Positions 459 to 6,406 of a stretch of DNA of 64,000 nt are shown here, in pieces. The stretch lies in the NCBI GenBank assembly GCA_015065965.1, contig SVPH01000006.1:1-64000 (forward strand), in the 5' to 3' direction. Positions within the stretch are counted from its first letter, which is position 1. Each line of letters begins with the position of its first letter. The notes below the pieces were generated by a model. The model was not told the origin of the DNA and ran no database searches. It saw only the letters and a program-made list of their open reading frames with translations. Both the position numbers and the translations under genes were made by a program. This stretch comes from Oscillospiraceae bacterium. Its GTDB lineage: Bacteria > Bacillota > Clostridia > Oscillospirales > Acutalibacteraceae.

Positions 459-617
459 ATGTTTGAAGTTAAATATATTTTGCTTCGTGCGAGCGGAGAA
501 AGATGGTTTGTTGTCGGCGAATATACAGACCCCGTTGAACTTGCCACTGCGGCATATACATGTGGACTTGAAAAACAAAAAATAAGAATAGACAGGGTTG
601 GTGAAATTGATGTTTAG
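459..617 (+). CDS. Small early phage protein (52 aa), hypothetical
   Basis: ATG at 459 follows GGAGGT at 446-451 with ideal spacing. The product begins MFEVKYILLRASGERWFVVGEY and reads like a small beta-rich domain. It overlaps the start of the next zinc-ribbon gene by a few bases. It is below the ORF-track length cut-off, so the track misses it. Function is unknown. Confidence 0.55.
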   Translation: MFEVKYILLRASGERWFVVGEYTDPVELATAAYTCGLEKQKIRIDRVGEIDV

Positions 618-1056
618 ATATGAATGCCATAATTGCGGCAAAAAATTTGAACAGCCTGACATTGTGCAGGAAAGACACGGCCTTGGTTACCCTCCGTATG
701 AAGATGTCACAGTATGCCCGTATTGTCACGGCTATTTCGAAGAAATGCAGAAGTGTGAGATTTGCGGTGAGTATTTCTGTGAAGATGAGATAGAGTATGG
801 TGTTTGTCATGAGTGTGTTGAAAAGAATCTGACAGTTGATAATTGTTATCGATGGGGCGAAGATTGCAAAGAAAAAATCGAAATCAACGGTTTTCTTCGT
901 GCAGTTTATTCCGATACCAATATAGAACGTCTACTGCTTAAGAATTTCAAAGAAACTTGTCTGTATCAAAAAATTGTGTGTCAATCGTTTGTTAACACTG
1001 ATTATTCGTGGTTTGCAGATAAGTTGAAGGAGGAACATAATGCCGAAGAGTTTTGA
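610..1056 (+). CDS. Zinc-ribbon early phage protein
   Basis: About 148 aa. The N-terminal half has several CxxC knuckles: CHNCGKKF, CPYCHGYF, CEICGEYFCEDE and CHECV. These suggest two or more treble-clef or zinc-ribbon sites. The C-terminal half is helical and has no recognised motif. I prefer ATG 610 to the TTG at 598 given in the track, because the longer form only adds three residues and overlaps more of the previous gene. Lying in the early operon, it could be a nucleic-acid-binding or host-interaction protein, but nothing in the sequence fixes that. It overlaps the next gene by 17 bases. Confidence 0.75.
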   Translation: MFRYECHNCGKKFEQPDIVQERHGLGYPPYEDVTVCPYCHGYFEEMQKCEICGEYFCEDEIEYGVCHECVEKNLTVDNCYRWGEDCKEKIEINGFLRAVYSDTNIERLLLKNFKETCLYQKIVCQSFVNTDYSWFADKLKEEHNAEEF

Positions 1057-1264
1057 AAACGGTGTTAGTTTTTACACTGAAGGCACAGCGAAAATATCAA
1101 TTTTCTTTCCCGAAAATGATGTTCGCTGTATATGGTGTCCGTTCTGCCGTTCTGAAAGCGAATTAGGGCGGTTTTGGTGTAGGTTGACTAATCATATGGT
1201 CTATAACCCAAACTATGCAGAATTGCCCGAATTCTGCCCCATAACATTAAAAAAGGAGGAATAA
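1040..1264 (+). CDS. Small cysteine-rich early phage protein
   Basis: 74 aa. ATG at 1040 lies behind AAGGAGGA inside the 3' end of the previous gene. The sequence contains CIWCPFCRSE, a later CRLT and FCPI, so four or more cysteines are spaced as in a small zinc-binding fold. Similar small proteins are common before the recombination ATPase in Firmicutes phage early operons. No activity can be assigned. Confidence 0.75.
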   Translation: MPKSFENGVSFYTEGTAKISIFFPENDVRCIWCPFCRSESELGRFWCRLTNHMVYNPNYAELPEFCPITLKKEE

Positions 1265-1266
1265 AA

Positions 1267-1890
1267 ATGGGAGAACCTGTTTTGGTTTACGGAAAATCAG
1301 GCAGCGGTAAAAGTCGCTCTCTTAAAAACTTCGCAGAAGATGAAATTTTTCTCATAAATGTTGTGTCAAAACGACTGCCGTTTCAGAAGCAGTTTAAATA
1401 TATTCTCAAAAGCAGAAACTATGCAACCATCAAATCTCAACTTTCAAAAATGAGTTGTAAAGTTGCAGTAATTGACGATGCAGGCTACTTGCAGACAAAC
1501 ACATTTATGAACGGGCATAGCGCACCTAAAAAAGGCAGCAACACATTTGATTTATTCAATCAGATAGGCGATGAGTTCTGGGATTTGGTTTTGTTTGTCA
1601 AAGAACAGTTGCCCGAAGATGTGATAGTTTACTTCACTATGCACGAAATCAGCAATGATATTGGTGAAGTTAAAGTAAGAACAATCGGAAAGTTGCTTGA
1701 TGAAAAGGTTTGCATTGAAGGTATGTTCACGATATGCCTTCACTGTATGACCGACGGCACAAAGCACTTTTTTAAGACTCAGGGTGGAACAAATGACATT
1801 GCGAAATCCCCAGAAGATATGTTTGAACTTGAAATAGAAAACGACTTGAAAGCGGTTGATAACCGTATCCGCGAATTTTGGAATTTTTAA
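1267..1890 (+). CDS. Phage P-loop ATPase, RecA-like/Sak4-type candidate
   Basis: 207 aa. A Walker A, YGKSGSGKS, lies at residues 8-16, followed by a Walker B-like VAVIDDAGYL near residue 75. The size and position, directly before an SSB-like protein and a nuclease, match phage AAA/RecA-like ATPases that support recombination or single-strand annealing (Sak4 group). Strong AAGGAGGA precedes the ATG. The three-gene order ATPase, SSB-like protein, nuclease suggests a phage recombination module. The Sak4 label is inferred from size and neighbours; a plain AAA ATPase call is safe. Confidence 0.8.
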   Translation: MGEPVLVYGKSGSGKSRSLKNFAEDEIFLINVVSKRLPFQKQFKYILKSRNYATIKSQLSKMSCKVAVIDDAGYLQTNTFMNGHSAPKKGSNTFDLFNQIGDEFWDLVLFVKEQLPEDVIVYFTMHEISNDIGEVKVRTIGKLLDEKVCIEGMFTICLHCMTDGTKHFFKTQGGTNDIAKSPEDMFELEIENDLKAVDNRIREFWNF

Positions 1891-1910
1891 TTTAAAGGAG
1901 ATAAAGAACT

Positions 1911-2438
1911 ATGAAAAAAATTGACTGGGCAAACGTAAAAGAAGCAACAGGTAACTCACTTGAGCCGGGCGGATATGTCTGCGGCATTACAAGCGTTGAG
2001 GATTTTCCCGACAAGGAATATCTCCGCTTTGAGTTTGACATTGCAGAAGGCGAGCACATTAACTATTACAGACAGTTGAATGAAAGCAAAGGCTTTTGGG
2101 GCGGTTCTTTCATTAAATCCTATAAAGAAAAGGCGTTATCTTTCTTCAAACAAATGCTTGTCTGCTTTGAAAAGTCAAATGCAGGGTTTAAGTTTGTTGA
2201 CGATGAAAAGACATTTAAACGTAAACTTATTGGCCTTGTTCTCAGCGAAGAAGAGTATGTTAAAAATAGCGGTGAAGTCGGCATCCGTCTTTATGTTTCG
2301 GCGTTTAAAACGGTTGATGAAATCCGCAAGGGCGATTTTAAAATTGAGCCTCTCAAAACGCTTTCAGATTTATCTACACCCGCTCCTGCATATAACGATA
2401 TTCCTCTTCCCGATGACGATGATCTTCCCTTCGCTTAA
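1911..2438 (+). CDS. SSB-like single-stranded DNA-binding protein with acidic tail
   Basis: 175 aa, beginning MKKIDWANVKEATG. The middle is beta-rich, as in the DUF669-type phage proteins that often accompany recombination ATPases. The C-terminus is a long acidic stretch ending DDDDLPFA, which closely resembles the acidic tip with terminal Pro-Phe by which bacterial SSBs recruit partner proteins. Here one Ala follows the Phe. The likely role is coating single-stranded DNA during phage replication or recombination. RBS AAAGGAG is well placed. Family assignment rests on motif and neighbours, not a search. Confidence 0.75.
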   Translation: MKKIDWANVKEATGNSLEPGGYVCGITSVEDFPDKEYLRFEFDIAEGEHINYYRQLNESKGFWGGSFIKSYKEKALSFFKQMLVCFEKSNAGFKFVDDEKTFKRKLIGLVLSEEEYVKNSGEVGIRLYVSAFKTVDEIRKGDFKIEPLKTLSDLSTPAPAYNDIPLPDDDDLPFA

Positions 2439-2449
2439 TAGGTGAGCAA

Positions 2450-3100
2450 ATGAAATTTCATTATACAAAAAAAGAATACAGTGAACTCATAAAACACATG
2501 CGTATCGTTTGTCAGACTAACGAAAAATCTAACGAACATATTTTAAGTTATTTTGACCGCTCGGGAATTGAGTATGTAAACCGCTCTATTCCCGAGGGCG
2601 ATTACAGTTTGATGATAAAAGCGTGCCCGGAACTCGGCTTTCCTCTCGATACATATTTTTATGATGAAATATTTATTGAGCGCAAAAACAGTTTACAGGA
2701 ACTTGCAAGCAGCCTTTACGGTCAAAAAGAAACGCCTGCTTATGTCGGCAGCGTTTTGGAAGAACTCAAATCGCAAAAAGTTTATTCTTCGCTAAAAACC
2801 GCATCGATTATCAGAGAAATGAAACAGGAGTTTTCTGTTTATGATGATGCGTTTTTACGGGAATTGAAACGAGCGATAAATAAACCGTATAAATTTCTTT
2901 TAATAGAACACCCAAGCGGATTAGATGGAATTCTCAGGCATGAATATCCAAATCAATATAGCAAATCTTCCTTTTGGGGGGCAGTGCATTCGATTGAAAT
3001 AAAATATGGTTTGAACATTAAATTCATTTCAAAAGAAAATATGGGTCTTGAGATATATACGTTGTGTAAAGGTATTCTTAACACATTGATTGTTAGGTAG
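2450..3100 (+). CDS. ERCC4-domain nuclease
   Basis: 216 aa. The region SIPEGDYSLMIKA followed by IFIERKNSLQELASSLYG matches the XPF/ERCC4 nuclease signature (GDY, then ERK with a downstream helix). The ERK lies near residue 84. Such phage proteins are predicted structure-specific endonucleases and commonly sit between recombination and replication genes. The C-terminal third (HPSGLDGILRHEYPNQ, SFWGAVHSIEIKYG) matches the pattern of an ERCC4 core fold. RBS and an 11-base gap to the previous gene indicate one operon. Confidence 0.8.
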   Translation: MKFHYTKKEYSELIKHMRIVCQTNEKSNEHILSYFDRSGIEYVNRSIPEGDYSLMIKACPELGFPLDTYFYDEIFIERKNSLQELASSLYGQKETPAYVGSVLEELKSQKVYSSLKTASIIREMKQEFSVYDDAFLRELKRAINKPYKFLLIEHPSGLDGILRHEYPNQYSKSSFWGAVHSIEIKYGLNIKFISKENMGLEIYTLCKGILNTLIVR

Positions 3101-3108
3101 GTGCAAAA

Positions 3109-3591
3109 ATGCTTGAAACAGGATATATAAAATTGCATCGCTCAATCCTGAATTGGGAATGGTACGGTGATACCGTTACAAAAAGTTTGTTTTTGCATTT
3201 GCTTCTGACAGTCAATATAAAAGATGCACGATGGCAAGGAGTTGATGTTCCGAGGGGGGCAAGGGTATGTTCTTTGACAACCTTATCCGAGGAAACGGGA
3301 TTTTCTGTCAAACAAATTCGGGTCAGCCTTGATAAACTGATTGGGACAGGCGAAGTGACAAGGTCAAAATTCCCGAAATTTTCAATAATTTCAATACAAA
3401 ATTGGAATAAATTTCAGACCGAGGGCAGGCAACAGGGCACAGGAAGGGCACAGAGCAGGGCACTCGAAGGGCAACAGAATAAGAATAATAAGAAAAAAGA
3501 AGATAAAATAGATACTAAAAAAGTATCTATTTTATCCGGCGAAGAAGGAAGTGTTTACCGTGAGGTCGGAGCAAACGATTGGGATGATTAA
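3109..3591 (+). CDS. Phage replication protein with N-terminal winged helix (DnaD-like N-terminus)
   Basis: 160 aa, opening LETGYIKLHRSILNWEWYGD, the usual start of Firmicutes phage replisome-organiser proteins. A winged-helix segment follows (LTTLSEETGFSVKQIRVSLDKLIGTGEVTR, given here in parts). The tail is Gln/Lys-rich and low complexity, and a C-terminal DnaD domain is missing. The likely role is origin recognition or helicase loading, given the adjacent dnaB. The end overlaps the helicase start. Function is inferred from domain and neighbours. Confidence 0.7.
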   Translation: MLETGYIKLHRSILNWEWYGDTVTKSLFLHLLLTVNIKDARWQGVDVPRGARVCSLTTLSEETGFSVKQIRVSLDKLIGTGEVTRSKFPKFSIISIQNWNKFQTEGRQQGTGRAQSRALEGQQNKNNKKKEDKIDTKKVSILSGEEGSVYREVGANDWDD

Positions 3592-4867
3592 CGAAATTTT
3601 TTTTGTTGATAATCAACTTGAAAAAGCGATAATCGGTGAAATGCTCCTTGATACAGATGCCTTGCGAAATGCTCTTGATAAACTTCAAATATCGGATTTT
3701 TCGGTTCATCAATATAAGCGGATTTTTGAAACAGCAGTAATTCTTGATAATGAAGGTAAAACAATCGACCCCTTGGTTATCGTCGGCAGATTTCCGACAA
3801 ACGAAAAGGGCAATGTCAAGAATCTCTTATATAGTTGTGTAAACGAAACGGTAAGCACAGCAGCATATGCAGAACATATTGATATGCTTAAACGCATATC
3901 AGCACGCCGAAAGGCTTATCAAAAAATTATGATGATTAGCGGGGCTATAGAGGAAGATGCTGACCCCGAAAGCATACAAAGTCTTGTTGATGATTTGGCA
4001 ATCAACATGGGCTTTGGCGAAAAGAAAGTTGAAATTAACTCTCTGCAGGGTTTTAATCGCTTTGTTGACAGTATAGGACAAAAAAAGGAATATTTTCGTA
4101 CAGGACTTAATGCTCTCGATAAGCAGATAAAAATAGGCAAAGGTCATTTTTTTGTTATCGGCGCAAGACCATCGCAGGGCAAAACGGCATTATCTTTGCA
4201 AATGGCCGTCAGTATGGCGGAACGGCACAAAGTGCTGTACTTCAGTTTTGAAACATCTGCGAACAGATTATATGAACGAATAATAGCAAGGGTGGCTAAC
4301 GTTGACTATGGTAAGATTGTTAACGGTACATTATCTGATGCTGACATAGAAAAAATAAAAAAACTACAGCCATATTTTGATGCAATAAACCTTGTAACAG
4401 TTGAAGCAGCAGGAATGACGGTTGAGCAAATAAAAGCAATGGCAATAAAGCATCATGCAGAAATTATTTTTGTTGACTATCTTGGTTTGGTGTTGACATC
4501 GGCCCCTGTCAATAATTCTTATGAAAGAACAACACAAATTTCAATGGCCTTACATAACATGGCTCAAAAGACGGGAATTGCGGTTGTTGCCTTATGTCAG
4601 TTGAGTAGGCAAGCAAACAGGACAGAACCTGATATGACGGCATTGAGAGATAGCGGACAGATTGAACAAGATGCGGATGAGGTTTTGTTCATTCACACTC
4701 CGGATGAAGAATCTGAAAGGCGGCATGAAAAGAAACTAATTGTCGCAAAGAACAAAGATGGCGAAAGCGGAACTTTTATCGCAGTTGAATTTATCGGAAA
4801 ATATCAGCGTTTCCAAAGACCGTTTGAAACTGAGGAAGAATACACCGATATTCCGTTTGTGGAGTGA
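3560..4867 (+). CDS. dnaB: Replicative DNA helicase, DnaB family
   Basis: About 435 aa. The N-terminal DnaB domain (NQLEKAIIGEMLLD) precedes a RecA-type motor with Walker A ARPSQGKTALSLQMA and Walker B IIFVDYLGLV. The conserved segment ALRDSGQIEQDADEVLF follows. The track start (GTG 3551) abuts the Shine-Dalgarno; GTG 3560 has correct spacing to AGAAGGA, so I use it, and ATG 3584 is a further option. The protein would unwind phage DNA ahead of the fork. The next gene encodes a partial second copy of this motor. Confidence 0.93.
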   Translation: MRSEQTIGMINEIFFVDNQLEKAIIGEMLLDTDALRNALDKLQISDFSVHQYKRIFETAVILDNEGKTIDPLVIVGRFPTNEKGNVKNLLYSCVNETVSTAAYAEHIDMLKRISARRKAYQKIMMISGAIEEDADPESIQSLVDDLAINMGFGEKKVEINSLQGFNRFVDSIGQKKEYFRTGLNALDKQIKIGKGHFFVIGARPSQGKTALSLQMAVSMAERHKVLYFSFETSANRLYERIIARVANVDYGKIVNGTLSDADIEKIKKLQPYFDAINLVTVEAAGMTVEQIKAMAIKHHAEIIFVDYLGLVLTSAPVNNSYERTTQISMALHNMAQKTGIAVVALCQLSRQANRTEPDMTALRDSGQIEQDADEVLFIHTPDEESERRHEKKLIVAKNKDGESGTFIAVEFIGKYQRFQRPFETEEEYTDIPFVE

Positions 4868-4869
4868 CT

Positions 4870-5505
4870 ATGACAAAGAAAGAAAAAGCAAAATATCAGA
4901 AATTTGTAACGTTTTGTATGCGAGAAAAACAAACTGTCCTGTTTAACGGACACGAATACAGAGCAGAAAGAATGTGCTTTGGGTTTAACCCTAACGGACA
5001 CGAATACATTGTTGTTGAGTTGGCAGACCTTAACGGCTGTGACAGTTCAATAACCGCAGGTCTTGACCTTGTAATGGTCAATGCCGCAGGAATGAGCGTT
5101 TCACAGATGCAGAGCATCGCCATTCAGCAGAAGGCTGATGTGATGTTCGTTGACTATATGGGACTTGTCAACAGCGGTAAAGATAATCTGTCACCGTATG
5201 AAAGAGCATCGCAGATATCGGTTGCGTTGCACACCCTTGCACAGTCGCAGAAAATAACCGTGTTTGCACTCTGTCAACTCAACCGTATGGGAAAAAGCGA
5301 ACCCGATATGACATCGCTCAGAGATTCGGGACAGATTGAGCAGGATGCTGATGCTATTATTCTTTTGTCAACACCCGATGACAGTGAGGAAAAAAGACAC
5401 ATCAAAAAACTGGTAATAGCCAAGAACAAAGAGGGCGAATGCAGAGAGGCTGAAATCTGCTTCAAAGGCGAATATCAACGCTTCTATTCACTTGTGGAGG
5501 AATAA
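4870..5505 (+). CDS. Chimera: small phage domain fused to a Walker A-less DnaB C-terminus
   Basis: About 211 aa. Residues 1 to about 65 (MTKKEKAKYQKF to LNGCDSSI) are unrelated to DnaB and read like an independent small phage protein. From about residue 68 the sequence follows the upstream helicase: NAAGMSVSQMQSIAIQ versus EAAGMTVEQIKAMAIK, then Walker B VMFVDYMGLV, QLNR, and LRDSGQIEQDADAIIL. Walker A and the whole N-terminal domain are absent, so it should not hydrolyse ATP alone. The two DnaB copies are clearly diverged at the DNA level, so this is not a recent duplication. It may be a relic of recombination or a helicase modulator. It overlaps the dnaB stop region and retains a full reading frame. 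Confidence 0.85.
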   Translation: MTKKEKAKYQKFVTFCMREKQTVLFNGHEYRAERMCFGFNPNGHEYIVVELADLNGCDSSITAGLDLVMVNAAGMSVSQMQSIAIQQKADVMFVDYMGLVNSGKDNLSPYERASQISVALHTLAQSQKITVFALCQLNRMGKSEPDMTSLRDSGQIEQDADAIILLSTPDDSEEKRHIKKLVIAKNKEGECREAEICFKGEYQRFYSLVEE

Positions 5506-5508
5506 CGA

Positions 5509-5922
5509 ATGATATATGAACAGATACGCAGTTATGCCAAGTTCGGCGAAGAATTGCCGAGAAACGCAACGGCAGCGGACAGAATGGCATATCACAGTTT
5601 AATGCCGATTATTGACTGTTACCGTAAGAGAATTTTAAACGCAGAACAAACCAAAGCGGAAGAATGCAAGGTCAGAGCGTTATACAACGAACTTTCAAAT
5701 ACCGAAGGCAGATTGAGGGCGATGTATACAAGTCAGCAGGAGTTTCTCCGCAAGGCTGAAATGGAACTGACGGCGATTGTGAAAGATGTCAAGCCCGGTG
5801 CGGATTTTGTTGACCTGTTCAAAAGAGCAATGCAGATTATTTCATATTTTGAAGGACAACCCCACAGCGTTGAACTGAAGAATATTGAGAAGAAATTGAA
5901 GAAGGTGGAAGAACATCAATGA
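5509..5922 (+). CDS. Helical early phage protein, hypothetical
   Basis: 137 aa, almost entirely helical by inspection, with a coiled-coil-like centre (RILNAEQTKAEECKVRALYNEL) and a Lys/Glu-rich end (NIEKKLKKVEEHQ). GGAGG precedes the ATG, and it begins three bases after the previous stop. Its 3' end overlaps the next gene by four bases, typical of translational coupling. No family is recognised. Confidence 0.7.
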   Translation: MIYEQIRSYAKFGEELPRNATAADRMAYHSLMPIIDCYRKRILNAEQTKAEECKVRALYNELSNTEGRLRAMYTSQQEFLRKAEMELTAIVKDVKPGADFVDLFKRAMQIISYFEGQPHSVELKNIEKKLKKVEEHQ

Positions 5923-6173
5923 AGTGCGTGGCATCGGATAAATCTCTGACCGAGCGGATTCGGAAAGAAGAGCGTGATAATGCGGTCAAGGCGATTATGG
6001 TAAACCTTGCACTTGCCGCCTGCGATAAATGCAGGCTGAGCAAGAAAACAGCCGAAAAACTTGTTAAAGAAACGATATACGGTGTGGAAACGCATAACCG
6101 TGGTGAGGTCACGCTTGCTGAAAAAGAGCAGGTGTTTGAAGAAGAGTACGGCATCAGATTTCATTGGGGGTGA
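5919..6173 (+). CDS. Small early phage protein, hypothetical
   Basis: 84 aa, starting with the ATGA overlap of the previous stop. The sequence MKCVASDKSLTERIRKEERDNAVKAIMVNLALAA is split here only for description; it is helical with a CDKC pair around residue 36. Position between replication genes and the methyltransferase suggests an early accessory protein. No function is recognised. Confidence 0.6.
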   Translation: MKCVASDKSLTERIRKEERDNAVKAIMVNLALAACDKCRLSKKTAEKLVKETIYGVETHNRGEVTLAEKEQVFEEEYGIRFHWG

Positions 6174-6178
6174 GTTTA

Positions 6179-6406
6179 TTGAGCAGCAATAACAAACTTT
6201 CCGCAATCTGCCGTAAATGCTTTTACCGCCGATGTGACCGCAGCGACAAATTCTATAACGGCAATTCCCGTTGGGATAGCAGATGCGCATACCTTGAACT
6301 GACAGGAGAATTAAGAGGCTGCACACCCACTGACAGCGAATGCGCAAAATTCAAACCCCGGACAAGCACAAAAAGCCTGACGGGGAAACGGCAGATGATT
6401 AAGTGA
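6179..6406 (+). CDS. Small cysteine-rich early phage protein
   Basis: About 75 aa. I choose TTG 6179, placed after GGGGGTGAG, over the earlier TTG 6164 in the track. Cysteines occur as CRKCFYRRCDR, CAYLE, GCTPTDSEC. The pattern of at least five cysteines suggests a metal-binding knuckle. Its stop is followed directly by the Shine-Dalgarno of the methyltransferase. Function unknown. Confidence 0.6.
   Translation: MSSNNKLSAICRKCFYRRCDRSDKFYNGNSRWDSRCAYLELTGELRGCTPTDSECAKFKPRTSTKSLTGKRQMIK

Follow-up and report, generated by a model that had tools for sequence, protein, structure and literature searches.

The window analysed here is a 64,000-nucleotide stretch at the start of contig SVPH01000006.1 from an Oscillospiraceae bacterium. 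It starts within a prophage. The left-hand replication module of this prophage runs from a Sak4-like recombinase through SSB-like, ERCC4 nuclease and DnaD-like loader genes to a complete DnaB helicase, dnaB1 (Table 1). The dnaB1 ORF as listed begins at a GTG at 3551, and its Walker A motif is GARPSQGKT. Replication is most likely done by dnaB1; since this helicase is complete and a loader gene is present, the phage does not need a second helicase.

Table 1. Positions of the genes and sequence features at the dnaB1 locus (blank cells: nothing recorded)
Feature	Position in window	Strand	Basis or remark
Sak4-like recombinase, left module	1267..1890	+	phrog_2872, E 6.6e-66
SSB-like protein, left module	1911-2438		
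ERCC4 nuclease, left module	2450-3100		
DnaD-like helicase loader, left module	3109..3591	+	phrog_2514, E 3.4e-22
dnaB1, complete replicative helicase	3587..4867	+	Pfam: DnaB N-terminal domain and full DnaB_C
GGAG, Shine-Dalgarno-like (ribosome-binding-like) sequence for the chimera	~4862..4865	+	Read directly
Chimeric ORF, 211 aa, ATG start	4870..5505	+	ORF listing, Pfam
Orphan N-terminal part, residues 1-61 (about 62)	4870..5052	+	No convincing relatives
Recombination breakpoint, where DNA homology to the intact dnaB gene (L085) of genome G002 opens	5050..5056	+	DNA alignment; blastn 5055-5439, 73.6% DNA identity
Second half of DnaB motor: strand before NAAGM, Walker B, LRDSGQIEQDADA, AKNKEG	5056..5487	+	
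Downstream gene, 137 aa, family of uncharacterised function	5509..5922	+	Relatives in replication regions of other prophages
Small Cys-containing protein	6182..6406	+	Relative in G034, 41% identity

The ORF 4870-5505 starts two bases past the dnaB1 stop. The GGAG sequence sits within the last codons of dnaB1, 5 bases ahead of the chimera ATG; to judge by its sequence, it is a plausible ribosome-binding site for the chimera. The ORF is in frame, with no stop and no frameshift. The initial annotation described it as a second gene right after a normal dnaB, carrying the DnaB motor from about NAAGM on, with Walker B and the LRDSGQIEQDADA block kept but without Walker A or an N-terminal domain; Pfam and the sequence both agree with this description.

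Motor homology in the chimera spans residues ~63-206, and Pfam aligns residues 65-206 with DnaB_C positions 102-254/255 (E 3.6e-27). This part is homologous to the phage DnaB-like replicative helicases (PF03796 DnaB_C / PF00772 DnaB; phrog_19) and shares Walker B, LRDSGQIEQDADA and AKNKEG with them. Walker B (FVDYMGL) and LRDSGQIEQDADA are intact; all of the 19 columns that are invariant among 34 aligned motors are also present in the chimera, including Walker B and the LR(D/E)SGQIEQDAD block.

Unlike these helicases, the chimera does not contain the first half of the motor. There is no Walker A P-loop (GxxxxGKT/S) in its sequence, and the Pfam motor match opens after the P-loop, at position 102. 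The linker and everything ahead of the strand leading into NAAGM are absent as well; unlike dnaB1, the chimera has no Pfam match to the DnaB N-terminal domain (PF00772). A DnaB-family RecA fold without its P-loop half cannot hydrolyse ATP, and DnaB requires the P-loop half and the linker segment for packing and ring assembly. The chimera is predicted to have no ATPase activity alone. An AlphaFold model reproduces the half-motor fold, with pLDDT mostly 80-90 in that part; the best PDB match of the modelled half is the DnaB-like 3bgw, with a TM-score of 0.60 by query length. This predicted half-fold reflects homology and says nothing of whether the half would be stable alone.

The N-terminal part of the chimera is an orphan. 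Nothing convincing is found for residues 1-65 in the IMG/VR, genome-contig, phage and plasmid collections, or in whole-genome searches of three sets of relatives (148, 394 and 291). The match to phrog_31784 is marginal (E 0.008); weak matches to L132, L137, L138 and MT837593 are unrelated or out-of-frame stretches on inspection. The first 65 residues had been attributed to an unrelated small protein. The foreign part is about 62 residues long, and its origin in a small protein is presumptive.

A single-sequence model of the first 67 residues, built without an alignment and of low confidence (mean pLDDT 66), predicts a short helix followed by a beta-meander; the last predicted strand, 61-66, is made of junction residues. 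A fold search with this model gives no significant match. It is conceivable, though rather doubtful, that the ORF functions through this small N-terminal domain, i.e. that a small phage gene behind dnaB lost its own stop in the crossover and now carries an inert DnaB tail. The ribosome-binding sequence is good and overlaps the dnaB end, and with the strand supplied by the junction residues the domain may be nearly complete; however, a domain of this kind finds neither a convincing relative in the searched collections nor a significant fold match, and the model is of low confidence. This possibility is a sub-case of the mosaic junction discussed below and is compatible with it.

Within the orphan part, a sequence of at least 16 bases (TAACGGACACGAATAC) is directly repeated, at 4944-4959 and 4992-5007. 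The two copies are 48 bases apart and in frame, and the repeat encodes NGHEY twice; this hints at a small internal duplication.

The motor half has a different source. Over the shared part it is about 54% identical to the dnaB1 motor at the amino acid level. The two motor copies are therefore diverged, as had been proposed, but the half is not a copy of its neighbour. Its closest relative is a complete 422-aa DnaB (L085/L114) from the same-genus genome G002, with 70% amino acid identity. In a tree of 34 motor halves, the chimera half pairs with this intact DnaB (support 100/98). Duplication of the neighbouring dnaB1 is thus ruled out as the source. The best matches of the half-motor in 394 order genomes lie nearly all within long DnaB frames, which argues that the half is derived from a whole DnaB.

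DNA homology to the intact G002 gene sets in abruptly at ~5053 (CGCAGGTCTTGACCTTGTA versus CGCAAGGCTTAATCTTGTT) and runs downstream; to the left of this point, DNA alignment gives no homology to that gene. The breakpoint is consequently located at residue ~62; what follows it is the tail end of another phage dnaB (dnaB2), different from dnaB1. The kin on the two sides differ: on the right it is the intact G002 DnaB, and on the left it is the dnaB1 lineage together with orphan sequence. The abrupt start of homology and the different kin support the recombination origin suggested in the initial annotation.

An assembly error that joined two ORFs had been named as the finding that would overturn the observation. 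The genome assembly is at draft level, with 56 contigs; however, two IMG/VR contigs from different datasets cross the junction with zero differences. Contig 3300024269_004194 covers 463-5591 of the window, junction included, and contig 3300029305_012019 agrees with the window from base 3 on, through the full 11,500 bases fetched. The latter begins at nearly the same base as the window and may share source data with it; the former is a separate record. Since both carry the junction identically, mis-assembly is scarcely credible. GC content is 0.39 to the left and about 0.45 across 5000-6400, with the best segment at 4990-6400. This step is not significant, as block shuffles score higher, and it is not counted as evidence for a foreign segment.

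Relatives of the downstream gene at 5509 are found in same-genus and same-order genomes, with 24-31% identity in alignment. They lie within prophage replication regions (L121-L123); in L154 (G455), the relative comes after a primase/helicase-type gene. In G034, the relative of the small protein at 6182 lies directly behind a relative of the 5509 gene. Read from sequence alone, this context would fit a right-hand segment that starts inside a helicase gene and carries its normal neighbours along. The intact dnaB of L085 has other genes behind it, unlike the window, and a viral-contig search with the L114 DnaB gives no relatives. A parental phage in which the 5509 gene follows dnaB2 did not turn up in the loci examined; for this reason the second parent is only inferred.

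Two further features of the 5509 family were observed. Firstly, the gene ahead of the L154 relative (1-1389, G455:C73) combines a Toprim-like part with a DnaB/KaiC-type motor. Secondly, the relative in L122 (4763-5548, G026) is extended at its C-terminus by sequence that resembles replication-initiator types and would link the family to phage replication.

The ORF is most probably a mosaic junction of two phage replication modules, i.e. an ordinary recombination scar. The left module, comprising the recombinase, the SSB-like protein, the ERCC4 nuclease, the loader, dnaB1 and the start of a small gene, would have crossed over at ~5053 with an incoming segment that began inside the dnaB of a second phage and extended to the genes that follow. 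By chance, the end of that dnaB would have landed in the reading frame of the small gene; an in-frame join by chance is expected in 1 of 3 cases. Lacking a P-loop, the resulting DnaB half would have no helicase activity of its own, and it most probably serves no selected role.

An identical final order would result if two complete dnaB genes had once stood in tandem and an internal deletion had cut the N-terminal part of the second, fusing its remainder to a small gene between them. Two DnaB lineages are adjacent at the locus, as this requires. However, two complete dnaB genes in tandem were not noticed in any phage of the loci read, and a single crossover is simpler; such a deletion is unlikely.

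Small gene fragments are commonly swapped between temperate and defective phages, helped by phage-encoded recombinases (PMC3945230). The recombinase encoded here is Sak4-like, and Sak4 is outside the scope of that study. The window resembles the mosaic junctions of temperate phages (PLoS Genet 2014, PMC3945230) in that a partial gene abuts the module of another lineage and homology starts abruptly inside a gene. In contrast to those junctions, the fragment in the window is in frame with a small ORF and reads as one gene, and its exact donor is inferred. The fusion looks like a further instance of known phage mosaicism and not like a new type of regulator. At this one locus it can be seen clearly how the exchange of phage modules makes in-frame chimeric ORFs which resemble new regulators in annotation.

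The event had been called old on account of the divergence between the two motors, which is not supported. The 46% difference separates two phage DnaB lineages and dates their split, not the fusion. The half evolves no faster than its intact relative. End branches in the tree are 0.17 for the chimera half and 0.19 for the intact G002 DnaB; relative-rate counts (chimera/intact) for seven outgroups are 6/9, 8/9, 11/11, 10/8, 6/6, 10/8 and 7/4. Conserved columns are changed at 2 of 43 positions in the chimera half and at 0-4 in intact DnaBs. Because branch length and relative rates match those of the intact gene, the half appears to have spent most of its branch inside a working helicase. The truncation would then be recent or, less simply, the half would have been constrained since. 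Between the half-motor and L085, dN is 0.20 and dS is 3.3 (saturated). Low dN/dS as a sign of selection on the half was set aside, as on the preferred reading the truncation came after most of the branch.

The chimera is known from one haplotype. The same chimera was sought in other prophages, as had been proposed, and only identical copies were found; no diverged copy of the fusion was recovered from any phage, plasmid, genome or viral-contig collection searched. Since all copies are identical, they do not document a fusion conserved under selection. Nor does a single haplotype, given the 1-in-3 chance of an in-frame join, lend support to the proposal that the event was kept open.

There is no evidence for the earlier suggestion that the product may join or poison the helicase hexamer. 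A half-motor selected as a regulator or poison of the DnaB ring would act via its retained subunit-interface segment. The conserved residues of the half are intact, and the model of the half can be superposed on DnaB motors of solved structure, which may be taken in favour of such a role. However, the P-loop strand, the helix and the linker are missing, the single haplotype has no counterpart in another phage, and the nearest kin is a normal DnaB with an equal evolutionary rate; a role of this kind is very unlikely. An in-frame ORF behind a good ribosome-binding sequence, free of stops and frameshifts, would also be expected of a selected protein. It is nevertheless extremely unlikely that the fusion is a phage-encoded modulator of helicase rings, assembled from a half motor that has no P-loop and a small, new beta domain, with translation coupled to dnaB1. 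A dominant-negative half-helicase would be interesting if true; nothing in the sequence evidence demands one.

The damaged prophage dnaB genes L168 and L165 are similar to the chimera in that they contain DnaB motor pieces without a complete motor. Unlike the chimera, which is a fusion behind an intact dnaB, both are single genes, damaged by a deletion (L168) and a frameshift (L165). In L168 (1535-2299, G123:C2), the N-terminal domain is joined directly to the post-Walker-A motor, with Walker A deleted, and the sequence leaves the family near its end; this ORF looks like a decayed prophage helicase. In L165 (3412-4682, G279:C9), a prophage dnaB is broken into two ORFs at an A8 run, immediately ahead of the motor strand at which the chimera starts. 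The break reflects either a frameshift or an error in sequencing; slippage is also conceivable. That dnaB splits recurrently at this site was considered on account of L165 (175 aa) and rejected, as L165 has a frameshift at the A8 run and contains no fusion.

The phage family phrog_11530 ('unknown function', 184-position profile) is confined to the second half of the DnaB motor and matches both 4870-5505 and 3587-4867. DnaB halves may thus exist as ORFs of their own in some phages, in the form of split genes, introns or scars.
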